From contig JALVJV010000019.1 of assembly GCA_027028145.1 (NCBI GenBank), forward strand, positions 1-64,000: 64,000 bases of DNA, given 5' to 3'. Under the pieces are notes generated by a model that searched no databases, was not told the DNA's origin, and saw nothing but the letters and a program-made list of their open reading frames with translations. Origin of the DNA: Archaeoglobaceae archaeon. Lineage in GTDB: Archaea; Halobacteriota; Archaeoglobi; Archaeoglobales; Archaeoglobaceae. Position 1 is the stretch's first letter. Each line of letters starts with the position of its first letter. This document shows positions 8,138 to 64,000 of this stretch, piece after piece. The translations under genes and the position numbers were made by a program.

Positions 8138-8452
8138 TCAAATCAAAGCATTTTTTATTAGAAATAATATTATCAAAATTATAATAATATCGAGAATCGC
8201 TTTAAAAAACCTCCTAAAATTTTCACCGTAAAATGCGGGAAGATGCGACCTATCTATCCACTTTAAATCTTTATATGCTTTTACAGTTGGGAGTAACTCT
8301 TTGGATATATACCCTTTCTCGATCAATCGCTTGACGATCTCGTTCACGGTGAATTCCGGAATTCCGCAGAATTCCGCGATCTGATCCACTTTCCTCTTTC
8401 CTAAAATTATAGCCTCAAGAACGTCCTCCTCAAGCTCTGATAACATATTCAA
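8138..8452 (-). CDS. Membrane-anchored winged-helix protein, 104 aa
   Basis: Residues 4-50 form a winged helix (LSELEEDVLEAIILGKRKVD; FTVNEIVKRLIEKGYISKEL). Residues 83-104 are a single C-terminal transmembrane helix (ILDIIIILIILFLIKNALI). The domain resembles that in the 11136-11786 protein (both contain RLIEKGY). Its start overlaps the stop of the secreted CARDB-type gene by four bases. A DNA-binding head tethered to the membrane next to a secreted protein suggests a sensor/regulator or a nucleoid tether; this is inference. Confidence 0.7.
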   Translation of the reverse strand: MNMLSELEEDVLEAIILGKRKVDQIAEFCGIPEFTVNEIVKRLIEKGYISKELLPTVKAYKDLKWIDRSHLPAFYGENFRRFFKAILDIIIILIILFLIKNALI

Positions 8453-10317
8453 TCACGCATGAGCATTCGAATTATCACCAAGACTGCCAATAACGCCGCA
8501 GAACCTACGACGAGTCCGGCACCCTTCTTTTTCTCTTTAACGGGAGTCGGCGTAATCTTAATCCCCTCCGCGGAAACTTCCGTTTTACCCTTCGCGAAGA
8601 ATACCTTGATCAGATCAGTTCCGACTATCTGAACTTTGTAGCTCCCCTCAACCTTCGGTGTGTATTTGAACGAAATTGTCTTTTCTTCACCTTTTTTGAG
8701 CTCGATCTCCTTGCTGAACACGATTTCGTTGTTTACCTTAACTTCGACCTTTTCCTTTCCAGTCCCGCCGATGTTCCTAACCTTAAACGAGATCGTCACG
8801 GGTGTTCCGACGTCCGTAATGAACTTATCCACGTTCAGATCGGAATACACGAACTTCGGAGGTATATGCTCCTTGACGGTTATGGTAACCACCTTATTAA
8901 CGTTGAAATCGTAGTAGGACTTGTAAAGCTCATCCGAATAGGACAAACCGCTCCAGTTCTTCATGAAGCACGCTTGAGCCTCGATTGAACCGGATAGGTC
9001 TTTCCAGTAATCCGTGTTATCTATAACGAGAACGCCGCCATTCCTGAAGAAGTAATCGAGCATACTGAGTTTCGGAACGCTGTTTCCAACGTAGATCAAA
9101 ACATCAACATCGCCGAGGTGGTAGTAGTCTCTGACGCCCAAGTATCGTATCGGAGCTTTCGTCTTCTTCTTCACGTATTCAAGTAACCTCGGAAGAACGA
9201 CTTCCGCCCTTTCATCGCTTCCCTTGAGTAGGGCAACCGAAATTGTTCCAGTTTTTACGTAGTTTATGTATGTGTAGGCTAATATGTTCGTAAAAACTCT
9301 CTCCGCGGACTCTCTGTTCATCAGATAACCGCTCTCGTTAAATACGCTTACCGCCGATTCCACATTTACGTTATTTATCTCCGATATGCCGACGCTACCG
9401 AGCACGTAATTGTTTGGGGTGTATATTATACATCCATCGTAAACCTTTCCGAGTAGTATCGGTTTATCGTAAAGTAGAGGCTTTATGAATATCGGCGGCG
9501 TATCGGCGAACTTGACGTGGTTATCGAAAGCAACGATCTCAATCCTGTGGGTTCCCTTCGAAAGCGGAGGAACGGTAAATCCAATTCTTTTGACTTCGTA
9601 ACCCTTCAACTCGACTACCTTAGTTTCCACTACCTTACCGTCAACCTTCAGCCCGATCTTTATCTCACCCTCTTTGTCGAAATTGTTCAAAACGGAAACT
9701 TTGAGCTTGTTCGGAACGTTGACTGGAAGTATTCGGGATTCAAACTGAGAATCGAATATAACGAACCTATTCGGAGGAACGGTATCAGCATTTGAATTAA
9801 CGTAGAACGTTATCTCCTTCTTAACGTAGGGCGCATCCTTCCTACTTATAGTCTTTATCTCTCCGCCACCGGTTGCGGAAAAGATGTTATACCTTGTGTA
9901 GCTCTTGAGGACAGCCGTGTAGTTCAGAACGTCAAACGCGTAAGCTTCAATGGTGTATTTTCCGTCAAGCCAGTTCTCTCCAATTGGAATGTCCACAACA
10001 GTGTAAACGTGATCGATGTATCCGAGCTTTCTTATTTCGATGACCTTCTTGTAAACGACATAATCGTTCGGATCTTTGACGAATATTACGAAATCTATGG
10101 CAACCGCACCTATATTCTTATTCAGGTTTCCGACACCCAAATAGAGCTTTAGAGTTTCACCCTGCCTGAAGACATCGTTCCATCTCGTGATGTATTTGTT
10201 ATAATCGTGAACGAACGTAACTATTTTAACGTCAAAATCGGCTGAGGTTAGAGCCGAAACCGGAAATACGATCAGAACGATCAGGGCTAATGCTATCGCA
10301 ATGCTAACTTTTGGCAT
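8449..10317 (-). CDS. Secreted CARDB-domain surface protein with C-terminal membrane anchor
   Basis: With the start at ATG 10317 the N-terminus is a clear signal peptide (MPKVSIAIALALIVLIVFPV, cut near VSALT). Ig-like beta segments follow (FVIFVKDPNDYVVYKKVIEI; LKVSVLNNFDKEGEIKIGL), then an alpha/beta part with LGDVDVLIYVGNS and NGGVLVIDNTDYW, resembling the glutamine-amidotransferase-like fold of DUF4350-type proteins. A CARDB-like repeat (VTISFKVRNIGGTGKEKVEV) precedes a Lys-rich hinge and one final membrane helix ending RMLMRD. An upstream ATG at 10356 lies inside the TATA element and is unlikely to be used. Probably envelope; role unknown. Confidence 0.7.
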   Translation of the reverse strand: MPKVSIAIALALIVLIVFPVSALTSADFDVKIVTFVHDYNKYITRWNDVFRQGETLKLYLGVGNLNKNIGAVAIDFVIFVKDPNDYVVYKKVIEIRKLGYIDHVYTVVDIPIGENWLDGKYTIEAYAFDVLNYTAVLKSYTRYNIFSATGGGEIKTISRKDAPYVKKEITFYVNSNADTVPPNRFVIFDSQFESRILPVNVPNKLKVSVLNNFDKEGEIKIGLKVDGKVVETKVVELKGYEVKRIGFTVPPLSKGTHRIEIVAFDNHVKFADTPPIFIKPLLYDKPILLGKVYDGCIIYTPNNYVLGSVGISEINNVNVESAVSVFNESGYLMNRESAERVFTNILAYTYINYVKTGTISVALLKGSDERAEVVLPRLLEYVKKKTKAPIRYLGVRDYYHLGDVDVLIYVGNSVPKLSMLDYFFRNGGVLVIDNTDYWKDLSGSIEAQACFMKNWSGLSYSDELYKSYYDFNVNKVVTITVKEHIPPKFVYSDLNVDKFITDVGTPVTISFKVRNIGGTGKEKVEVKVNNEIVFSKEIELKKGEEKTISFKYTPKVEGSYKVQIVGTDLIKVFFAKGKTEVSAEGIKITPTPVKEKKKGAGLVVGSAALLAVLVIIRMLMRD

Positions 10318-10337
10318 CAACTTTACTATGATGAAAG

Positions 10338-10351
10338 AAAATATATATTTT
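10338..10351. promoter_or_regulatory. Palindromic TATA element serving two divergent leaderless genes
   Basis: AAAATATATATTTT is a perfect 14-base palindrome. Its centre is about 30 bases from the ATG of the MinD-like gene on the plus strand (10375) and about 28 bases from ATG 10317 on the minus strand. Both distances place transcription start at or next to the start codon. Confidence 0.6.
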
Positions 10352-10374
10352 ATCATTTAGCCGATAGTGAGAAA

Positions 10375-11130
10375 ATGCCAGTAATCGCAATATGCTCCGG
10401 TAAGGGTGGAGTCGGAAAAACAACCGTGGCGGCGAATCTATCGGTCATGCTGTCCAAATTCGGAAAAACCCTCGTAATCGATTGCGACATAGCACTTCCC
10501 AATCTTCACACTTTCTTCGGAATAGAAGATCCCTTAGTGTCTCTTTTGGACGCTCTGAGAGATATAAACTACCTCGAAGATTCTATCTACAGAATCAGAG
10601 CTAAGAACGTTGGAAAACTCGATATTATACCGGCTTCAACGTCTGTAAAAGCACTCGAAGAGATAGACATGGAAAAATTGAAGGATATAATCGAAAGTCT
10701 TAAACATGATTATGACTTTATTGTATTGGATGTAGCGGCTGGATTGAGCAAGTATGCAATGATTCCGATGCTGAGCTCGGATAAAATCTGCATAGTGATA
10801 AATCCGGAAAAGACAGCCATCTCAGATGCGCATAAAGTTAGAAAGATCGCGGACATATCGGACATCGCGGTGAGGGGTATCATAGTGAACAGATACAAGG
10901 GAGAAAAGAAGATGATCGATTATGCGGAGAAAGCCATAGGTGCCGAAACGATAGGCATAATAAGAGAATCCAAGCTCATAACCGAATGCTGGAAAGAGGG
11001 TGTGCCGGTAACGATAAAAAAACCAGATTCGAAAGTTTCCAAGGAGTTTCTACTGCTTGCAAAGAAGATAGTCGGCAGTAAGGTGGAAGTCAAGCCTTAT
11101 GGCAAGCTGAAATACCTCTTAGGATGGTGA
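10375..11130 (+). CDS. minD: MinD/ParA-family P-loop ATPase
   Basis: The deviant Walker A motif KGGVGKTT is at 10-17, with the signature lysine at its start. Switch region TLVIDCDIALPNLHTFFG and Walker B-like FIVLDVAAGLS follow. The C-terminus YGKLKYLLGW could be a short amphipathic membrane-targeting helix, as in MinD; this is inferred. MinD-like ATPases place membrane or DNA complexes in the cell. It overlaps the next gene, a membrane-anchored winged-helix protein, which makes it a candidate partner for positioning the filament or surface system downstream. Confidence 0.85.
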   Translation: MPVIAICSGKGGVGKTTVAANLSVMLSKFGKTLVIDCDIALPNLHTFFGIEDPLVSLLDALRDINYLEDSIYRIRAKNVGKLDIIPASTSVKALEEIDMEKLKDIIESLKHDYDFIVLDVAAGLSKYAMIPMLSSDKICIVINPEKTAISDAHKVRKIADISDIAVRGIIVNRYKGEKKMIDYAEKAIGAETIGIIRESKLITECWKEGVPVTIKKPDSKVSKEFLLLAKKIVGSKVEVKPYGKLKYLLGW

Positions 11131-11135
11131 TGTGT

Positions 11136-11786
11136 GTGGACGATGAAAAGAAGATATTGAACGCCTTACTCGATGACGATGAATCGTTTATCGTGAAGAA
11201 GAGAAGGGGTGAGGGTAGAGAAGATGACAGAATCGAAAGTATAGTTAAACAGGTTCGTGAAACTATCAAGAAGAGAGCTCTCGACGAAGAGTCTAAGGAG
11301 GATAGGCAGGCTCAGATTGAAAGACTCGAAAGGATCAAGCAGAGAATTGAAAATTTGAGCGTAGGCGTATCCGAGCTTGAGAAGGCAGTTTCAGTCGAGT
11401 CGATATCGACGCGTGTTAAAGAAGAGCCGAAGTCAGCAGATGTTAAGCCTAAGGCGGAAGTAAAGCCAAAGTTTAAGGAGCAACCATACCTTTCGGATGT
11501 CGAGATAAACGTTCTGAAATCCATACTTAGATACGGAGCAAACATCCGAAGGATCTCCAAAGCTACCGGTTATCCGGAGGTAGTCATAAGCAAGGCTATC
11601 GAAAGGTTAATTGAAAAAGGATACCTCGATGAAGACCTCAACGTGGCCGAGAAGGCTATACATTTGGCTGGAATTCCGACGGAAGAGGAGAAAGGTATAG
11701 GAGTTAAAATAATAGATGTTGCGATAATTTTAACCGCGATAGTGCTCGTTCTTTCTACGCTCTACTACCTCGGCTACATCCCATAG
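11136..11786 (+). CDS. Coiled-coil, winged-helix protein with C-terminal membrane anchor
   Basis: An acidic N-terminus and a coiled coil (IERLERIKQRIENLSVGVSE) precede a Lys/Pro/Val-rich linker. A winged helix follows (LSDVEINVLKSILRYGANIR; EVVISKAIERLIEKGYLDED), then one transmembrane helix (VIDVAIILTAIVLVLSTLYY without the first V). GGTGAT four bases before GTG 11136 favours that start; ATG 11124 is an in-frame alternative. It overlaps or abuts the MinD-like gene. It is a longer paralogue of the 8138-8452 protein. A MinD partner that bridges DNA and membrane is a reasonable guess. Confidence 0.65.
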   Translation: MDDEKKILNALLDDDESFIVKKRRGEGREDDRIESIVKQVRETIKKRALDEESKEDRQAQIERLERIKQRIENLSVGVSELEKAVSVESISTRVKEEPKSADVKPKAEVKPKFKEQPYLSDVEINVLKSILRYGANIRRISKATGYPEVVISKAIERLIEKGYLDEDLNVAEKAIHLAGIPTEEEKGIGVKIIDVAIILTAIVLVLSTLYYLGYIP

Positions 11787-12658: not shown

Positions 12659-13016
12659 ACCTTGCATCCAATGACAAACGTATTTAAAAATTTTGAAATG
12701 TTTTGAATATTCACCAACTAATTTTAATAACGATCATACGAATTGCAACTTTTAGATTGTTTTGATCGGGCATTAAAACTTTGTCAGTATTTTAATTTGG
12801 ATTGTTATTAATATTTGTTACCTTAATGTCAGTTTTATCTACCGAAGTTCGGGTTTTGGGGTATAGTTTTTCGGTAAACCGAAATGGGACTCTGATTAGC
12901 CCCTTAAGAAGTCCATATTTTGTAAAAACAAAATTTGTATCATAATATTTTATATATTTTCTAACAAAAAAGCTTAAGTAATGTAGTGATAAATAATTTA
13001 GAAGATAGGTGATAGT
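12659..13016 (+). promoter_or_regulatory. Upstream control region of the vWA/filament operon
   Basis: No gene seen in this A/T-rich stretch. TTTATATA at 12948-12955 is a good TATA box; the start would be near 12980, giving a leader of about 35 bases with GGTGAT before ATG 13017. Further up, CCGAA-G-TTCGG (12842-12852) and TTCGGT-AA-ACCGAA (12870-12883) form two related inverted repeats 29-30 bases apart, candidate operators for regulated surface expression. Confidence 0.5.
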
Positions 13017-13244
13017 ATGAGGTGGCTGTTGGCTTTGCTGTTGCTGTTAACATTTGTAACGATCGGTAGCTTAAAGTTGACGACAAAGAAAATTGGTGAT
13101 AAAGATAAGGACGGAATTCCAAACGCGGTAGATGAGGATATAGACGGAGACGGCGTTCCAAACATAATCGAAACCCAGCACGGAACGGATCCGTTTAATC
13201 CGATGCAGTATCTTATTGAAGATACGCTGATAGGGGGTGGTTAA
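13017..13244 (+). CDS. Small secreted/anchored TSP3-type calcium-binding protein, 75 aa
   Basis: Residues 1-18 are a signal peptide or membrane anchor (MRWLLALLLLLTFVTIGSL). Two aspartate-rich repeats follow, DKDKDGIPN and DIDGDGVPN, with a closing ETQHGTDPFNP: the thrombospondin type 3 pattern that binds calcium. Such repeats often decorate archaeal S-layer and adhesin proteins; here they stand alone. It is the first gene of the operon and its stop lies within the leader of the vWA gene, so the two are coupled. Confidence 0.75.
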   Translation: MRWLLALLLLLTFVTIGSLKLTTKKIGDKDKDGIPNAVDEDIDGDGVPNIIETQHGTDPFNPMQYLIEDTLIGGG

Positions 13245-13245
13245 C

Positions 13246-15849
13246 TTGAAAAAAATAATACTTGCCGTATTGGTATTGTTAGCAGTGTTAGCAGTAGTCA
13301 ACGCGGAAGTCCTAAGAGTTCCGAGTAACGTATACTCCCAAGGAGTCGTAGGTAAAGCCTCAGGTTTTACCGTAAATTTAACCGTGAATTCAGCGGTTAA
13401 GCATATCCCGGTTGATGTTGTTCTCGCAATAGACTGCTCACCTTCGATGGGCAGATACAGTAAAGTTATCTACGGCCCTGTCACGGTAAACATTACGAAT
13501 GTTATACATCGCTATGGAAGGTGGGTTCCCATCGCGAAATTCACATTAGATAAAACGTCCAACGTAGAAATTTTGCTGAGCTATCCGTTGGAAGACTACT
13601 ACAACGACAGCGGTATGGGTTACGACAGAATAGATGTTGCTTTGGATAACGCAACGCCGAGCCAATATTGGGGATACATGTGCATGGGATGGAGCACATG
13701 CGGCGATCCGGCGAGTTTTATTTTTGAAAACGTTCCAAAAGGTTCTCACACCGTATACGCAAAACTTTACGGAATGCCAAGAACTGAAATAAGAACCCTG
13801 ATAATAGCTCTACCGCCGACAAGAATAGACGCCGCAAAGGATACCGCTAAGTATTTCGTTGGCTTGCTTAAAGATGATGACAGAGCGGCTGTAGTAAGGG
13901 TTGGTTCGGTAGACACGACCGAGATTAAGCTGAATCTAACCGACGACAAGGTTGCACTTAACAACACTATCGACAGCTTAACCCTCGACGACTGGGTATG
14001 TATGGGCTGTTGCTGTAGAAGATTTACACGCGTATACGAGCTAACGGCTTTAGGCGAGGGACTCAAGAAAGCCTGCGACATCTTAAATGCTTCCAGCAGG
14101 CAGTCCGTAAAGGCTATAATACTGCTCACCGATGGAGGCTGGAACGACGGTATAAGCCCAATAGACGTTGCAAGGTATATCGCGAAACCGTTGGGATATA
14201 GGATATACACGATAGGTTTCGGTGCCGTCAATGAAAGTTTGCTAAAGCAAATAGCAGAGATTACGGGAGGTAAATACTACTACGCCGCAAGCGAGGAAGA
14301 TCTTAAGGAGATCTACGACGAAATTTATAAGGAGATAACGGTTTACGCTACGAATGTAACGTTGACCTTGAACTTCGACAATCCGAACGTCAAGTTCGAT
14401 CATGCAATTCCAAGCCCGACGTCCGTGAGCGGTAACGTTGTTTCTTGGCATTGGAACGAACTGAAGAACAATACGAGCGTTACAGTTTGGGTTAACTCGA
14501 CGGTAGCCGGAAAGCAGACCGTCGCGGTTGGAAACCTGACGTATTACGACTACTCAGGTTTACATTCCGTGCAATTCAATGTGACGATGAACTTCTCCGG
14601 CAATCTGGTAGTTACAGCGACACCCAATAAGACTGCGATTTGGGAAGGCGAGACCGTGGGTATAAACATAACATCTACTCATCCGATTAGCAGGATTACA
14701 TACAACGCAACACCGCCCATAACCAACGCTAACAGCATAGTTACTTTGACCGTAAACAACAACACGGCAAGGATGGTATGGACACCCCTGCTCAATTACA
14801 CCAATAAGAATACAACCGCTACGATAAATATAACGGTCTACAGTCCACCATACGGCATCAACTCAACATCCGTAAGTGTTCAAGTGTTCAATAAGAAGGC
14901 ACCGTTGATAGTTAAGGTTATTCCAAGTAGGAATAGCATTACAGAAGGCGAAACCGTAACTATAAAGTTGATAGCAAATTATCCGATAGATAGTTCCAAT
15001 GTGATCGTATCGGGATTCCCGGTTGAAATCAATTCTACAAACAGCAATATAGTTAAGTATAACCTTAACAATACGACTGTTATCGTCAGCTGGACACCGT
15101 TGCAGAACTTCGTGTCAGGCGGACAGACATACGTTAACGAAAAACTGACTTTTGATGTGACGAGCAACAACGGTCTAAGTGGTTCTGCGAGCGCAGTTAT
15201 AAGTGTATATAACAGGACGGTTAATAAGCCCGGCGAAGTATTGGTAAGTCGTGTTAGGAATCTATACATAATAACGTATTTGGATAAAACACCGCCAAAG
15301 GATGTCGGATTTAAGGTGGAAGTCGACGGAAAGGTCATCGATTACACCAACGACAGTTTCATACTCACATACTTCAGAAAGAACGATACGGCTTGGATTT
15401 TGGATATCTCTCCTCAGTATACGTTCACGAACAACCTAACTCAAAACGTTACTGCAAACGTTACGTTCTACACTGAGAAAGGTGTTTATCTGAACGGAAC
15501 GAGCATTAAGATCAACAAAACAAACGTTACCTTCTATCCCGTAATACTCAACGTAAGAAAACTCGATAACCTAACTATAAATTGGAACGGATCCATAGGC
15601 TATCCAATTCCGCTATACGTTGGGGAGGTCATAAATATCAACGGCAAATTGATAAATGCGACGGATGGTAACGTAACTGTTAACGGTTTGGTGATAACCA
15701 ACACCAGCAGTGGAATAATATCGGCGGTGTTCATTCCTAACGCGGCTGGAGATTACACGATCAAAGTGAACGCAATAAATAATACAACGACTACATTATT
15801 ACTGTGGAAGGATGTTCCAGTAAGAATAAGACCGGTAACTCCCTCCTAA
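13246..15849 (+). CDS. Large secreted von Willebrand factor A surface protein, about 867 aa
   Basis: A signal peptide (KKIILAVLVLLAVLAVVNA) is followed by a vWA domain. MIDAS residues are DCSPS (66-70), Thr270 in YELTALGEGL and Asp299 in LLTDGGWNDG. About 120 residues are inserted between the first MIDAS strand and helix 1. A cysteine cluster CMGCCC lies at 255-260. The rest is repeated beta-sandwich modules with many N-x-S/T sequons. No C-terminal membrane helix or sorting motif is visible (ends RIRPVTPS), so it may attach through partners or be a filament tip. TTG 13246 with upstream GGGGGTGG is preferred over GTG 13237. Probably a cation-dependent adhesin. Confidence 0.75.
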   Translation: MKKIILAVLVLLAVLAVVNAEVLRVPSNVYSQGVVGKASGFTVNLTVNSAVKHIPVDVVLAIDCSPSMGRYSKVIYGPVTVNITNVIHRYGRWVPIAKFTLDKTSNVEILLSYPLEDYYNDSGMGYDRIDVALDNATPSQYWGYMCMGWSTCGDPASFIFENVPKGSHTVYAKLYGMPRTEIRTLIIALPPTRIDAAKDTAKYFVGLLKDDDRAAVVRVGSVDTTEIKLNLTDDKVALNNTIDSLTLDDWVCMGCCCRRFTRVYELTALGEGLKKACDILNASSRQSVKAIILLTDGGWNDGISPIDVARYIAKPLGYRIYTIGFGAVNESLLKQIAEITGGKYYYAASEEDLKEIYDEIYKEITVYATNVTLTLNFDNPNVKFDHAIPSPTSVSGNVVSWHWNELKNNTSVTVWVNSTVAGKQTVAVGNLTYYDYSGLHSVQFNVTMNFSGNLVVTATPNKTAIWEGETVGINITSTHPISRITYNATPPITNANSIVTLTVNNNTARMVWTPLLNYTNKNTTATINITVYSPPYGINSTSVSVQVFNKKAPLIVKVIPSRNSITEGETVTIKLIANYPIDSSNVIVSGFPVEINSTNSNIVKYNLNNTTVIVSWTPLQNFVSGGQTYVNEKLTFDVTSNNGLSGSASAVISVYNRTVNKPGEVLVSRVRNLYIITYLDKTPPKDVGFKVEVDGKVIDYTNDSFILTYFRKNDTAWILDISPQYTFTNNLTQNVTANVTFYTEKGVYLNGTSIKINKTNVTFYPVILNVRKLDNLTINWNGSIGYPIPLYVGEVININGKLINATDGNVTVNGLVITNTSSGIISAVFIPNAAGDYTIKVNAINNTTTTLLLWKDVPVRIRPVTPS

Positions 15850-15895
15850 TTTTTTTAGTTAAATTTTATTTTTTTTCGATACATTTTTTAAAATG
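15850..15895 (+). terminator. T-rich terminator-like stretch after the vWA gene
   Basis: Runs of seven and eight T residues separated by a short A/T spacer, then a further T6, directly after the vWA stop. Archaeal RNA polymerase stops at such tracts. It may limit transcription into the filament machinery so that the surface protein is made in excess. Confidence 0.5.
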
Positions 15896-15900
15896 ATGAA

Positions 15901-15920
15901 ACCATTATAATGATAATGGT
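15901..15920 (+). promoter_or_regulatory. Hairpin covering the start codon of the filament ATPase
   Basis: ACCATTAT-AATG-ATAATGGT is an 8-bp inverted repeat with a 4-base loop. Both possible ATG starts (15910 and 15916) lie inside it. It could act as an operator or as an RNA hairpin controlling initiation. Confidence 0.4.
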
Positions 15921-17490
15921 ATCGGAACTGTTTAAGATATCACTGCCTGATCACTATAAAATCTTACTGGAAATTTACGATGATGTCAAAAAGCCGATCT
16001 TGGAAGTGGAAGTTCCGGAAAACGAAGAAGTTGTTGAAGATTACTGGATCGTTCCAGAGTTTCTTAAAGTTCAGATTAGAAAAAATTTGGACACGTTACA
16101 GCAGATGTATTACGTAATAGAGCCTCAGCTTGCGGAAGACGAATACGAACTGATGTCCATTATATACAACGATCTAAAACGAATTCTCGTTCTGAAGGAT
16201 TACGGTAGGGATGTGCAGACGAGAATAAAGGTAATCGTGGACACTTTGGACGAGCTCATGGACGAATACGCAATAAAGATTAAAAGCGATCTCTCGCTCA
16301 AGATCCTCTACTTTCTCTTTCGGGATTTCTTCGGCTTCGGTCCACTCGAATGTTTTATGAACGATCCGTATTTGGAGGACATCTCGTGCGACGGTTACGA
16401 TATTCCGATTTACGTCTTTCACAGAAAGTTCGGTAGCTTGAAAACGAACGTGAAGTTTTCAAAAGAACAGCTGGATTCTCTCGTCCTTTTACTTTGCCAG
16501 AAGTCCGGTAAGCACATATCGTATGCGAACCCGCTTATAGATGCGACTTTGCCGGATGGTAGCAGACTGCAGGCTACCTACGGAACCGAAATTACGACGA
16601 GAGGTAGCAGTTTTACCATCAGAAAGTTCAGAGTAGAACCGTTCACACCCATCGACCTCATGAGATTCGGAACTATGAATTCGGCAATATTAGCCTATTT
16701 CTGGTTACTCGTAGAAAATAAGATGAGCTTCATGGTCATCGGAGAAACCGCGGCAGGAAAAACGACGACGATGAACGCTCTGATGATGTTTATACCGCCA
16801 GAAGCAAAGGTGATCTCGATCGAGGATACGAGGGAGATCCAGCTCTATCACGAGAACTGGATTGCCGGAGTTACGAGGATGGGTATTGAGGGGCACGAAA
16901 TAGACATGTATGATCTGCTGAAGGCGGCTCTGAGACAGAGACCCGACTACATAATAGTCGGTGAAGTTAGGGGTAGAGAAGCCCAAACGCTCTTTCAGGC
17001 TATGTCAACCGGACACGCTTCGTATTCTACTCTGCATGCCGGAGATGTTAACCAATTAGTTTACAGATTGGAGAACGATCCTTTAAACGTTCCGAGGGTT
17101 ATGATTCAGTTTTTAGATGCGGTCATAGTGCAGTTCATGTGGGTTAAGAGGGGGATCAGAAAGAGAAGAGCGAGGGAGGTCAACGAAATCTTCGGAATCG
17201 ATCCGGCCAACAAGAATCTGCTCGTAAATCCGCTCTTCAAGTGGGATCCCGTGGAGGATAAGTTCGTTCAAGTCGGAGACTCCAAAAAACTCGAAAAGAT
17301 CGCCCAGGTAATGGGTATGGAGCCGTTTGAGGTTATAGAGGAATTGAAAAGAAGAAAGGAGTTCTTAGAGCTTATGAACGCCAAGGGAGTCAGACACTAC
17401 AAGGCGGTCACCAAGCTCATCCACGAGTATTATCGAAGCCCGGAGAAAGCTTTCGAAGAGGTGATGAACGTTGAAAGCTCTAATCCGTAG
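15910..17490 (+). CDS. Type IV filament/secretion ATPase (GspE/TadA/FlaI family)
   Basis: Motor ATPase for a type IV filament, acting at the cytoplasmic face. An N-terminal domain (1-200) is followed by the catalytic core: Walker A GETAAGKTT at about 278-286, Asp box SIEDTREIQLYHENW, Walker B-like YIIVGEVRGRE near 346, and His box STLHAGDV. At 526 residues it is a normal length for archaeal pilus ATPases. It overlaps the TadC-like gene by 20 bases. The upstream position of vWA and TSP3 genes suggests an adhesion filament rather than an archaellum: no FlaH, FlaF/G or preflagellin is nearby. Confidence 0.92.
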   Translation: MIMVSELFKISLPDHYKILLEIYDDVKKPILEVEVPENEEVVEDYWIVPEFLKVQIRKNLDTLQQMYYVIEPQLAEDEYELMSIIYNDLKRILVLKDYGRDVQTRIKVIVDTLDELMDEYAIKIKSDLSLKILYFLFRDFFGFGPLECFMNDPYLEDISCDGYDIPIYVFHRKFGSLKTNVKFSKEQLDSLVLLLCQKSGKHISYANPLIDATLPDGSRLQATYGTEITTRGSSFTIRKFRVEPFTPIDLMRFGTMNSAILAYFWLLVENKMSFMVIGETAAGKTTTMNALMMFIPPEAKVISIEDTREIQLYHENWIAGVTRMGIEGHEIDMYDLLKAALRQRPDYIIVGEVRGREAQTLFQAMSTGHASYSTLHAGDVNQLVYRLENDPLNVPRVMIQFLDAVIVQFMWVKRGIRKRRAREVNEIFGIDPANKNLLVNPLFKWDPVEDKFVQVGDSKKLEKIAQVMGMEPFEVIEELKRRKEFLELMNAKGVRHYKAVTKLIHEYYRSPEKAFEEVMNVESSNP

Positions 17491-19345
17491 ATACAGCAGA
17501 CTGATAAGGGAAAAACCCGAAAAATTTGAGGATCTGTCCAAAGCCATTGTCAGAGCGCGAATGCCGATTACCACTCAAAGATACCTCGCCTTAGCTTTCG
17601 TATATTCGGCAGTATCGGCGATGGTGGGTGTGGTGTTGGGAATTTTGATCTTCACTATTTTAATTCCGTTCGGTAAGGTAACACCCCTTATAGCTCGGAT
17701 TATACCCCCGGAAATAATCATACGAAATTTTAAGATTTTAAGCATAGTTTACGTCGCATTGGGTGCTTCGTTGTTGGGAATTATTTCATTTAAGTTCGTT
17801 CACTATCTCGTCCTGACTTATCCCTTTTTCATAGCCGCGAAAAGAAAAAACGAGATCGACCTCTACCTGCCCCATGCCGTAAACATGATGTTCGGAATGG
17901 CTGTTGGAGGTGTTCGAGTTTACGACATCATCAAGTGCATAGCCGAATCCAAGGTTATGTGCGGAGAGCTAAGCAGGGAGTTTAGAATTATCGTTGATCT
18001 TGTTGAAAACTTCAAGCACGACCTGTTCGATAGCATGCGTTTTGTTAGGGACACAACACCGAGCGAAAAGCTCGCGGCGTTCTTGGACGATCTTATATTC
18101 GTAATGAGTAGCGGAGGTAGACTCACGGAATTTCTTAGGGGTAAGTCCGAGGAGTTGCTTGAGGAGCAGGAGGTAAGCTTCGAATCATACATAGACTTTT
18201 TGGGAATTATGGCTGAAGTCTACATTGCGATATTCGTTCTGCTTCCCCTCTTTCTACTCATCGTCCTCGTTGTAATGCAGTTGATCGGAGAGAACGTCAT
18301 AAACCTATACCGACTCGCAATAGCTTTCGTTCTTCCGGTGGCAACCGTAGCCTTCGTGTATCTCATCAAGTCCAGTCTGCCAACACCGAAGGTGAAGATC
18401 GAGGAAGAACTCGAAGAGGTGGAAAAGCCGATAGTAGGTGTTAGGAGCGGTAGGGCTGAAACATTCGAAATAGACAAGTTCAGAAGACTTTTGAAAAAAT
18501 TGAAAAAGATCGTCGTGTATCCTTTCAAAGAAAAAACCATTTATACACTTCAGTTTAGGATTTTAAGCTTTCATTTTGCGTTGATTGCTATTATCACATT
18601 TGCCGTAGCTTCAAAATTTTTAAACCTTGAGCGATCTCTAATTTTGACGGTGTCCGCTGTTGCAATTCCTTTGATAATTTTGGTCGAGCTTAGGGGTAGG
18701 ACTATCAAGAAAATAGAAGAGAAAATACCCAACCTTTTCAGAGAACTTGCGGTTCTAAACGAAGCCGGACTTAACATCTTGGAAGCCCTTAACGTTATTT
18801 CATCGTCCGAAATCGGAATAATTTCGAAGGAAATTAACGTAGTAAGGAGAAGAATTGAGTGGGGAACTACCATCCACAGAGCTTTTGCCGTTTTGGGGGT
18901 TAGAATTAAAAGCGACCTGATAGCGAAGATAATTCCGATAATAACGAAGGCTTTGGAGGTTTCGCCAACTTTCAAGGACGCGTTCATAACAGTTGCGAGA
19001 TACGCGGACTCCGAAGTTAGATTTTCGAAAAGAATTAGAAACTACATGTTTACATATATTATTATAACATACATGTCGATATTTATATTCCTGTTTGTTG
19101 TGTATATCGTCATCAAGAGCTTTCTCTCGGCTTTTGCGGTGAATACGACTGCCATGGGTTCCATAACGTTTACTATGAATATCGATACAATAAAGGAAGT
19201 TTTCTTCGAAATATCGCTGATGGTCGGACTGTTTTCGGGAATAATAGCGGGGGTTATAGGAGAGGGCAAGATCGAGTCTGGACTGAAGCATTCCTACGTG
19301 TTTTTGATGGCAACCTATATAGTGTTTAAGATTCTATTAAGGTGA
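17471..19345 (+). CDS. Type IV filament platform membrane protein (TadC/FlaJ/GspF-like), 624 aa
   Basis: Two tandem GspF-type units. Membrane helices lie near residues 38-62, 85-110, 240-265 and 275-300 in the first, and near 360-405 and 525-605 in the second; between them are cytoplasmic helices such as VGGVRVYDIIKC and LRGKSEELLEEQEVSF, the usual contact with the ATPase. A Glu-rich linker (EEELEEVEKP) joins the halves. It anchors the pilus base and partners the ATPase. It runs directly into the pilin-like gene. Confidence 0.88.
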   Translation: MKALIRRYSRLIREKPEKFEDLSKAIVRARMPITTQRYLALAFVYSAVSAMVGVVLGILIFTILIPFGKVTPLIARIIPPEIIIRNFKILSIVYVALGASLLGIISFKFVHYLVLTYPFFIAAKRKNEIDLYLPHAVNMMFGMAVGGVRVYDIIKCIAESKVMCGELSREFRIIVDLVENFKHDLFDSMRFVRDTTPSEKLAAFLDDLIFVMSSGGRLTEFLRGKSEELLEEQEVSFESYIDFLGIMAEVYIAIFVLLPLFLLIVLVVMQLIGENVINLYRLAIAFVLPVATVAFVYLIKSSLPTPKVKIEEELEEVEKPIVGVRSGRAETFEIDKFRRLLKKLKKIVVYPFKEKTIYTLQFRILSFHFALIAIITFAVASKFLNLERSLILTVSAVAIPLIILVELRGRTIKKIEEKIPNLFRELAVLNEAGLNILEALNVISSSEIGIISKEINVVRRRIEWGTTIHRAFAVLGVRIKSDLIAKIIPIITKALEVSPTFKDAFITVARYADSEVRFSKRIRNYMFTYIIITYMSIFIFLFVVYIVIKSFLSAFAVNTTAMGSITFTMNIDTIKEVFFEISLMVGLFSGIIAGVIGEGKIESGLKHSYVFLMATYIVFKILLR

Positions 19346-19350
19346 CAGTC

Positions 19351-20973
19351 ATGAACAGAAAAGGTGTCTCGGTTCTGGTCGGGTTCATACTCCTGATGTT
19401 GACCTTAATGATATTCTTGGCTATTCTCCAAACTCAGATGGTTCCGAGCATGTGTAAGGATGCGGAACTTAAGCATCTCGACAGGCTTACCGACGAACTT
19501 CAAACTCTCGACAAGGAGATCATGGACAACAGGCTAACCACGGTGACACTCGATTTGGGTATAAGTTATCCGAAATATCCACTTCTGCTTTCTCCTCCGA
19601 CCATGGCATCCTCCGTAACTTCAAAGCGATTTACGATTGAGTTGAGTTACGAAGAGCTACTGCCCAACGGATCCACAACGTTCAGATCGGATAACTACAC
19701 CACAAATCGCATTGAAATAGATCTGAATTACTTTTACAACAGGGGATACAAACTGCTGTTCGAGAACACCGCCATTTTGAGGTTTATAGAAAATAGATTC
19801 ATCGGTGCCGTTACCGACCAGCAGATGTTCACGCAGAACGAAATAAAAATTCCGCTGATAAATACGACGTTTAATTCGTTCACCTCGTCTCAACCGATAG
19901 ATTTGGTCGTAGTTCCGGTTTCCTACGGTGGATACGTCTTGGCTAAGAACGTCACAGTGACTTTCAGCACCGATTGTCCGAGTTACTGGTCTAAGATTAA
20001 ACCGGAGCTTGAGAGTATGGGTTACAACGTAACGGTAAGCGGTAACAACGTTACGGTAACGTATCGAAACGTAACTAAACTTGAGCTGTCATACACACTG
20101 CTGTTCAAAGGAGTATCGGTTACAGCCGCGCAGTATGCCAACGTCGAAAAGCCGAAGCCTTTTAGAATAATTCCGACGAATCCGACCACCTCATATACCA
20201 TAAACGTCAACGAATCTATCGTTTTGGGTGTTAAGGTTCTCGACGAATACAACAACCCCGTTAGGGGGTATCCGGTAAACGTTACCTTGATCGGAGTAGG
20301 ATCGGTCACACCGAAAAATCTTGTTTACACCGACAAAAACGGTTACGCGAAAGTCGTTTTTAGCTCGAATTCAACTGGAGATGCAACTGTAAACTTCAGC
20401 GCGTCGTGCGGATATGTCCTCTATAGAATCTCAGTTATTAGCACGGGATTTCAACCTAATTTCCCTTACGGCGTTACCTATGATGCCAACACTCCCGGAG
20501 CGTTGTTCGCGTTCGGTAACGAGGTTTCTTCAAATCCGCCGAAGACGAACACGACACCTACCGTGCCGTTGCCTACTACAAACATAACGAAAGACGACGG
20601 CATATATTTGGTGAGCGAAGCCGATTCGGGATACTACGCCGCGCAGAGATTTGAGATCTACGGGCTGAACACTACAAACGTTCTCGAAACATACGTGAAC
20701 TGGAACGGTTACGGCGTTGGACTATCCGGCGGAGAATCGCTCTACATTTGGAATTACACAAAAGGAGCTTATGATCTCATGGTTTATACCGATTCCTCTA
20801 GCGAGATCTGGCTCGGAGTCGGGCTGAACTCGACTCAGATCAAGAACTACGTCAGAAACGGGAAGATGATAGTTCTGGTAGTTCAAAACGATGTAACTAG
20901 GCGGTGGTGGTGGTTTACGTATCCGTCTGAACTATACACGGACTACATAGGAGTCCTTCAGATATTCAAGTAA
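19351..20973 (+). CDS. Large pilin-like protein with class III signal peptide and Ig-like domain
   Basis: The N-terminus MNRKGVSVLVGFILLMLTLM has the short basic leader, a likely cut after KG, and a hydrophobic helix, the pattern processed by archaeal prepilin peptidase. At about 541 residues it is several times longer than a normal pilin. The body is beta-rich with many sequons. Residues about 290-370 form an Ig-like (Big_1-type) domain (VKVLDEYNNPVRGYPVNVTL; GDATVNFSAS), and the last 120 residues a separate beta module with aromatic clusters (RRWWWFTYPSEL). ATG 19351 follows GGTGA. Probable tip or adhesive subunit. No ordinary small pilin is encoded nearby. Confidence 0.75.
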   Translation: MNRKGVSVLVGFILLMLTLMIFLAILQTQMVPSMCKDAELKHLDRLTDELQTLDKEIMDNRLTTVTLDLGISYPKYPLLLSPPTMASSVTSKRFTIELSYEELLPNGSTTFRSDNYTTNRIEIDLNYFYNRGYKLLFENTAILRFIENRFIGAVTDQQMFTQNEIKIPLINTTFNSFTSSQPIDLVVVPVSYGGYVLAKNVTVTFSTDCPSYWSKIKPELESMGYNVTVSGNNVTVTYRNVTKLELSYTLLFKGVSVTAAQYANVEKPKPFRIIPTNPTTSYTINVNESIVLGVKVLDEYNNPVRGYPVNVTLIGVGSVTPKNLVYTDKNGYAKVVFSSNSTGDATVNFSASCGYVLYRISVISTGFQPNFPYGVTYDANTPGALFAFGNEVSSNPPKTNTTPTVPLPTTNITKDDGIYLVSEADSGYYAAQRFEIYGLNTTNVLETYVNWNGYGVGLSGGESLYIWNYTKGAYDLMVYTDSSSEIWLGVGLNSTQIKNYVRNGKMIVLVVQNDVTRRWWWFTYPSELYTDYIGVLQIFK

Positions 20974-63462: not shown

Positions 63463-64000
63463 GGTCTCACCCCCGGACTTAAGATGTATAACACCAGCAT
63501 CAGTAGCAGAACATACGTTGCGTAGATTACGAATGCATTTGCAACGATAACGATTCCGCAGGCAAGCATCAGAATCCTGTTTTTAACTCTCATATATTCA
63601 AGATCGCATATCATCAGAATGGATAGAATTATGGCTATAGCATCAAGGCACGGAAGCTTGAGGTTTATCCAGCACGATAGCGTGAGGGCTGAAGCTACGG
63701 TAGGAAGCCCGACGAAATCTTCTTTCGATAGAACGTTGAATCTCGCAAGCCTCAGAATACTTGCGATCAGATAAATAGCTCCGATCCATAGAAATCCGAA
63801 GTGATAGAGAATCAAAGAAGGGAAGGCTCCGAAGGATATCAGATCGGCTAAGGAATCGAGATCCTTCCCCAACTTGCTCTTCCCCAGCCTGTTCGCGATA
63901 AATCCGTCCATTCCATCCATCAAAGCTGAGAAGTAGAGGAATTTAAGGGATAAAACACCCCGAATGAGGTAGCATATTCCGAGGAAGCCCGATAATGCGT
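63432..64000 (-). CDS. CDP-alcohol phosphatidyltransferase (archaetidylserine synthase-like), partial
   Basis: The open frame runs off the right edge, so the N-terminus is missing; TTG 63923 is not the true start. The CDP-alcohol motif is present: MDGMDGFIANRLGKSKLGKD followed by LDSLADLIS, with Asn replacing the usual Arg after Ala. Five or so membrane helices follow (LYHFGFLWIGAIYLIASILR; AIAIILSILMICDLEYM; ILMLACGIVIVANAFVIYAT). Probably makes archaetidylserine for polar lipids. Confidence 0.85.
   Translation of the reverse strand, partial: ALSGFLGICYLIRGVLSLKFLYFSALMDGMDGFIANRLGKSKLGKDLDSLADLISFGAFPSLILYHFGFLWIGAIYLIASILRLARFNVLSKEDFVGLPTVASALTLSCWINLKLPCLDAIAIILSILMICDLEYMRVKNRILMLACGIVIVANAFVIYATYVLLLMLVLYILSPGVRPLAKPILKRE

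Follow-up and report, generated by a model that had tools for sequence, protein, structure and literature searches.

Archaeal pili mediate attachment. The described machinery closest to the locus presented here is that of the euryarchaeal Clade 2 or PilB3-type type IV pili, which include the long Ig-like minor pilin arCOG02911 and whose PilB3 loci assemble PilA pili from genes located elsewhere (Makarova et al. 2016, PMC4858521). In this 2016 census of archaeal pili the only vWA proteins mentioned are regulators and bacterial TadG, and DUF2341 proteins were proposed as tip adhesins in another clade (PMC4858521). Among bacteria, the type IV filament of S. sanguinis carries the modular minor pilins PilB, a vWA protein with MIDAS and inserted arms, and PilC, which has a ConA-like lectin module (PMC8179133). 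Caulobacter CpaL bears a vWA domain that is split by a beta-rich domain and located on a pilin module (PMC12607857), and PilY1 sits at the pilus tip as a free vWA protein (PMC9210963). The census of bacterial modular pilins was based on a pilin motif of bacteria, and archaea are not mentioned in it (PMC8179133).

We analysed a 64,000-nucleotide stretch of DNA from a heat-loving Archaeoglobaceae archaeon, in the following called the window, and compared a five-gene operon located on it with these systems. Judged from its domains, the operon rather probably combines the machinery for a type IV filament and a modular minor pilin of its own with a MIDAS/vWA adhesin that is secreted and a calcium-binding TSP3 partner. 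Like Clade 2/PilB3 pili it has a PilB3_C ATPase, a TadC with two T2SSF domains, PilA major pilins encoded elsewhere and a long Ig-like minor pilin. Unlike in those pili, a TSP3 microprotein and a secreted vWA protein are encoded in the same operon, and the minor-pilin family reaches about 2000 aa in relatives and has lectin-type heads. In the literature searched, to which access was partial, no vWA tip adhesin of archaea that would compare with PilY1 or PilB was found, nor, as the preliminary description had maintained, any archaeal counterpart with this gene set; the machine itself probably belongs to a known clade (PMC4858521). Our best reading, by analogy with PilY1, S. sanguinis PilB/PilC and CpaL, is an archaeal type IV filament that would present MIDAS and lectin-like adhesins.

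Layout of the five-gene operon

The five-gene cluster put forward in the preliminary description is real. ORF reading gives five genes on the plus strand at 13017-20973, overlapping or nearly so, in the order TSP3 microprotein, secreted vWA protein, PilB3-type ATPase, TadC and class III prepilin, and domains, selection and conservation within the genus agree with this assignment. The features are:

12949-12959, plus strand: putative TATA-like element TTTATATATTT, about 60 nt 5' of the first gene, fitting the archaeal TATA consensus
13017-13244, plus strand: TSP3 microprotein, 75 aa, signal peptide and two TSP3 calcium-type repeats
13233-13240, plus strand: Shine-Dalgarno sequence GGGGGTGG, preceding the vWA start TTG 13246
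13246-15849, plus strand: secreted vWA protein (VWA 1.3e-15; alignments), 867 aa from TTG 13246 or 870 aa from GTG 13237
13432-13446, plus strand: MIDAS residues D63, S65 and S67 of the complete five-residue MIDAS
13432-14133, plus strand: region with the further MIDAS residues T267 (14044) and D296 (14131), assigned by alignment
15910-17490, plus strand: type IV filament ATPase, PilB3-like, 526 aa (T2SSE 7e-34; Walker A GETAAGKTT)
17471-19345, plus strand: TadC/FlaJ platform protein, 624 aa, two T2SSF domains (T2SSF 5e-32)
19351-20973, plus strand: giant modular prepilin, 540 aa, corrected start ATG 19351, class III signal

The TSP3 and vWA genes overlap or abut, TadC starts (17471) ahead of the ATPase end (17490), and the TadC and pilin genes abut, the sole real intergenic gap in the operon being 60 bp 5' of the ATPase gene. 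The TATA-like element lies at the end of an AT-rich intergenic stretch. All five genes are under purifying selection, with dN/dS values of 0.03-0.24 in sister-species comparisons with unsaturated synonymous sites. The analysis drew on MAG assemblies, and the relatives from the same genus include JAMOPJ010000041.1 and JALSOQ010000017.1, both named 'Archaeoglobaceae archaeon'. Gene order in relatives, suggested beforehand as a check, gives a divided answer: the five-gene order is retained in 5/5 genomes of the window's genus (Archaeoglobaceae), though the upstream flank differs, but the exact operon, with the TSP3 and vWA genes inside this ATPase/TadC locus, is restricted to this one genus, and other Archaeoglobaceae genera place the pair elsewhere.

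Upstream of the operon the window encodes a CARDB protein with a C-terminal membrane anchor (8449-10356, minus strand) and, within 8449-11786, a plus-strand HTH protein with a C-terminal membrane segment, the gene for a MinD-type ATPase lying between the two. Homologues of the CARDB and HTH genes directly adjoin a small-pilin cassette in genus g12 (L130, L131), for which reason both may be accessory genes of type IV pili (T4P).

Filament machinery and the modular pilin

The ATPase of the operon reaches 30.9 bits for the PilB3_C domain (PF23989), above the Pfam cut-off of 27; the other PilB encoded in the genome does not reach this value (20.5). The ATPase/TadC pair is present in most of the 55 Archaeoglobaceae genomes. 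Two further filament loci are found in the source genome, a 1.52-Mb assembly that is 99.9% complete: contig 21 carries an archaellum, and contig 1 (L068) a T4P locus for small pilins that has an ATPase and a TadC of its own. Three Pilin_N proteins (PF07790, PilA-like) of about 168-184 aa are encoded elsewhere in the genome (contig C11 twice, C10 once), as is a prepilin peptidase (Peptidase_A24 at C5:75704, 51.8 bits). The combination found, i.e. a T2SSE ATPase with Walker A and PilB3_C, a neighbouring TadC with two T2SSF domains, a class III prepilin plus peptidase and PilA-family pilins, is that of a PilB3-type pilus. We rejected an identity as archaellum, as the FlaI model gave 425.8 bits vs a cut-off of 550, the operon contains no FlaH and the archaellum locus is separate. 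A Peptidase_A24-like match inside the window (63480-63638) is below cut-off, in a frame resembling CDP-alcohol phosphatidyltransferase, and was discarded as a chance match.

The earlier observation of one oversized pilin and no ordinary small pilin applies to the operon but not to the genome with its three PilA-like pilins and the small-pilin locus on contig 1. Since the major pilins of PilB3 loci are encoded elsewhere (PMC4858521), an operon without a small pilin corresponds to a known PilB3-type situation, and since PilA-type pilins are encoded elsewhere in this genome the giant pilin is not the sole possible subunit. These points bear on an alternative in which ATPase and TadC would build a short pseudopilus for bindosome-like secretion or display, the giant pilin being exposed on the cell surface and the vWA and TSP3 proteins being cargo or anchored in the S-layer, with no extended adhesive fibre. 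The single oversized prepilin in an operon without small pilin, the large multi-domain heads, the membrane-anchored CARDB protein nearby (8449-10356) and the distant match of the ATPase to NCBIfam bindosome_BasE speak in its favour, and a dedicated ATPase and platform as well as large proteins with class III signal peptides are also features of the Sulfolobus bindosome (BasEF/BasABC). However, the ATPase bears PilB3_C and, with 213 bits, is far under the BasE cut-off of 1000, on which ground bindosome membership was rejected, and PilB3 loci assemble PilA pili from distant genes (PMC4858521), with PilA-like genes being present here. Sugar-binding proteins, in turn, are found in the bindosome but not here. 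Altogether we regard a pseudopilus as unlikely and prefer an adhesive type IV filament.

The last gene of the operon had been described as encoding a 541-aa pilin-like protein with an Ig-like domain. The protein is indeed a class III prepilin (MNRKG/VSVLVGFILL, the slash marking the predicted cleavage site), and its Big_1 Ig domain (about aa 288-354) scores 34.4 bits, slightly under the cut-off of 34.9, but correction of the start gives a length of 540 aa. It contains a head domain, Big_1 and a beta-rich C-terminal head (about aa 400-540), i.e. extra modules are grafted onto the prepilin chain. Members of this family occur in 50/55 genomes and in 13/13 genera of the Archaeoglobaceae and have in common a module from residue 1 to about 365, comprising prepilin N-terminus, head and Big_1; related members match DUF7289/Pilin_N weakly. 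The C-terminal heads are swapped among relatives, with DUF2341 in many of them and LamG, NIDO or PKD in others. The beta-rich head of the window pilin is also found in genera g5 and g2, and one member of 2016 aa combines four DUF2341 with two LamG modules. By its predicted domain composition the giant pilin is thus a modular pilin with exchangeable, lectin-like heads. Its gene lies beside ATPase/TadC in g1 (the window's genus), g5, g8, g9 and g12 and alone elsewhere, and its co-occurrence with ATPase/TadC orthologues in the 55 genomes is positive but weak (Fisher p 0.055).

In the ATPase loci compared outside Archaeoglobi, no vWA or strong giant-pilin match was located beside PilB ATPases, the exceptions being weak pilin-family matches and one modular pilin of ANME-2c; vWA linkage outside Archaeoglobi is mostly with pilin cassettes rather than with PilB ATPase loci. 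In the ANME-2c genome (L204 240-5577) the neighbour of a pilus ATPase is a prepilin of 1333 aa that combines Pilin_N, PKD, Ig and DUF2341 and, as far as its domains indicate, is another archaeal modular pilin.

The TSP3 and vWA proteins and their relatives

The repeats of the TSP3 microprotein have the motifs DKDKDGIPN and DGDGVPN...GTDPF, and the Pfam scores for TSP3_bac (24.8 bits) and TSP_3 (19.7 bits) are both below the cut-off of 25, the former narrowly. The microprotein is strongly constrained (dN/dS 0.07-0.09) and is therefore regarded as a real gene. It is located 5' of the vWA gene in 5/5 operon genomes, and its homologues are likewise found upstream of vWA genes in other lineages. 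A second microprotein, built of a signal peptide, one TSP3-like repeat, a hydrophobic segment and a short tail, is encoded 5' of the TSP3 gene in genus g4 (L128 6290-6592) and family f26 (L274 10371-10775; L275 9642-10055), and the tails of these proteins align (FDISFKIYKSAR / NIDLIVKVFKS).

The vWA protein, which probably starts at TTG 13246 behind the Shine-Dalgarno sequence, is composed of an ordinary Sec-type signal peptide, a vWA domain, Ig-like repeats and a family-specific C-terminal domain, and has no prepilin N-terminus. A beta-rich insert of about 120 residues (about aa 71-190) splits the vWA domain after S67, and all five MIDAS residues are invariant among 10 aligned members of the family. 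As AlphaFold models of the pilin and the vWA protein were of low confidence (pLDDT 59 and 56) and gave Ig-type matches only in Foldseek searches, fold-level claims rest on the sequence.

The claim that the vWA protein works with a type IV filament finds strong comparative support in independent linkages to two types of T4P locus, in fusions of a related vWA to prepilins in sister genera and in a TSP3-vWA fusion beside ATPase/TadC; its placement on the filament we infer. In genome G017 (genus g4; L128) a small-pilin cassette with ATPase and TadC is directly adjoined by the genes for a vWA protein of 1097 aa and two TSP3-type microproteins, and in two genomes of family f26 (L274, L275) TSP3, vWA and then five prepilins follow each other in the same direction in an apparent operon. 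Genome G322 (L276) encodes a 1046-aa protein in which a TSP3 repeat (29.1 bits, cut-off 25) is fused to the vWA domain, about 1 kb 3' of an ATPase/TadC pair. A vWA domain on the prepilin chain, absent from the window, is present in most other Archaeoglobi genera, where the small-pilin cassette encodes a class III prepilin N-terminus followed by a related vWA on the same chain. These vWA-pilins are about 790-970 aa long; a PKD domain is present in most of those scanned, and a complete MIDAS and a similar insert in 8/8 aligned proteins. In g1 and f26 the DUF7266-like pilin of the cassette is short and without vWA. Free vWA proteins and vWA-pilins form separate clades in a tree, which makes both arrangements look old and leaves a recent origin of the free protein by fission of a vWA-pilin unsupported.

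In families f5 and f11 a large related vWA protein lies at most 10 kb from a DUF7266-like pilin in 16/17 listed genomes, with about 0.1 expected by random placement, a comparison that yields no formal probability as the genomes are related and the count is made among the matches listed with both hits on one contig. Nearly 2000-aa vWA proteins adjoin small-pilin cassettes in family f5 (L278 1439-11054), the one scanned having two vWA stretches, and on contig G214:C14 of this family two such proteins flank the pilin of the cassette, one on each side.

The vWA family is not always tied to pili, since a conserved paralogue from the same genus is embedded among multihaem cytochrome genes, with neither TSP3 nor T4P genes around it (L067 8638-10794; L137 6356-8536; L138 6369-8507). 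The paralogous vWA gene on contig 16 has neither a TSP3 partner nor pilus neighbours. In family f7, TSP3/vWA pairs have no pilin neighbours on the short contigs available; in one case the whole pair is tandemly duplicated (L273 4892-9814). Together with the ordinary Sec signal peptide, the paralogues beside cytochrome genes and the f7 pairs would fit a general cell-surface module, serving the S-layer or cell-cell contact, that moves along with genes for surface structures and is co-expressed with the filament without being part of it. This explanation is improbable in view of the recurrent association with T4P loci of two kinds across several families, the fusion of related vWA domains to prepilins and the close linkage in 16/17 listed genomes of other families.

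Comparison with bacterial adhesins and proposed mechanism

Comparison of the window vWA protein with that of G037, a sister species, revealed a head swap: about aa 1-350 are 30-47% identical, most of the remainder about 80%. G036 and G038 show the reverse identity pattern relative to the window. Such an exchange of the putative binding half would fit what is expected of an adhesin. In a conserved assembly contact it would be less likely to occur, and we accordingly give little credence to a primary role of the vWA protein as assembly or priming factor or as mechanosensor regulating filament assembly, even though PilY1 primes assembly, CpaL influences piliation as well as the sensing of surfaces (PMC12607857, PMC9210963) and vWA domains often mediate protein-protein contacts.

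The resemblance to PilC/PilY1 tip adhesins noted in the preliminary description stands as an analogy but not as homology. Like PilY1/PilC, the vWA protein is a large secreted non-pilin protein with a MIDAS that is encoded together with minor pilins; unlike them it has Ig-like repeats, another C-terminal domain and an additional TSP3 partner. The PilC beta-propeller C-terminal domain had no Pfam or NCBIfam match in the window vWA protein, and homology to PilY1/PilC was rejected on this basis. With S. sanguinis PilB/PilC the archaeal system shares both kinds of adhesive module, vWA/MIDAS with arms and lectin type, on a type IV filament, but the window vWA is a separate secreted protein and the pilins are archaeal class III pilins, the likeness being drawn at the level of modules. 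As in Caulobacter CpaL and TadG-type proteins, a vWA domain with MIDAS is split by a beta-rich domain and linked to minor pilins, but in the window it resides on a separate gene, the vWA-pilin fusion occurring in sister genera instead.

These bacterial models make the following mechanism plausible. The giant prepilin would be trimmed by the prepilin peptidase of the genome and inserted by the ATPase/TadC pair, probably alongside PilA-type small pilins encoded elsewhere, and its bulky Ig and beta-rich head would come to lie at or near the filament tip. The vWA and TSP3 proteins would be exported through Sec. Attachment of the vWA protein to the filament is an assumption, given that its signal peptide is of the ordinary type and a prepilin N-terminus is absent; with its Ig-like repeats as stalk the protein could be held by tip or minor pilins, and the MIDAS, flanked by the inserted beta-rich arm, may bind a ligand on a surface, on a cell or in the S-layer. 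The likely role of the TSP3 protein is that of a clamp or a folding partner, dependent on calcium.

Since relatives carry the related protein beside, or fused into, pilus genes, archaeal pili probably bear adhesins at their tips in a way similar to bacterial ones. This suggests that in archaea, as in bacteria, pili diversify through adhesive modules that are grafted or docked on conserved pilins. More tentatively, TSP3 and MIDAS/vWA might make up a hitherto undescribed archaeal tip module for type IV pili that is shared by several families within one euryarchaeal phylum and acts either as a free cap in the manner of PilY1 or, by fusion, as a domain of minor pilins, with exchangeable vWA heads and lectin-headed giant pilins setting adhesion specificity. 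If so, bacterial Tad-type vWA minor pilins could descend from, or parallel, the archaeal arrangement. The locus and its relatives provide a testable set of candidates, i.e. a MIDAS protein, a calcium microprotein and lectin-headed modular pilins.

Two minor observations concern the vWA protein. Among the aligned genomes of the genus it ends in an invariant PVTPS (window 15832-15849), and other members of the family end in V-S or V-T. The vWA proteins of two sister species (L039 1313-4021; L040 9215-11917) contain 22-23 cysteines vs 8 in the window protein, many of them located in Cys/Gly-rich loops of the vWA insert.
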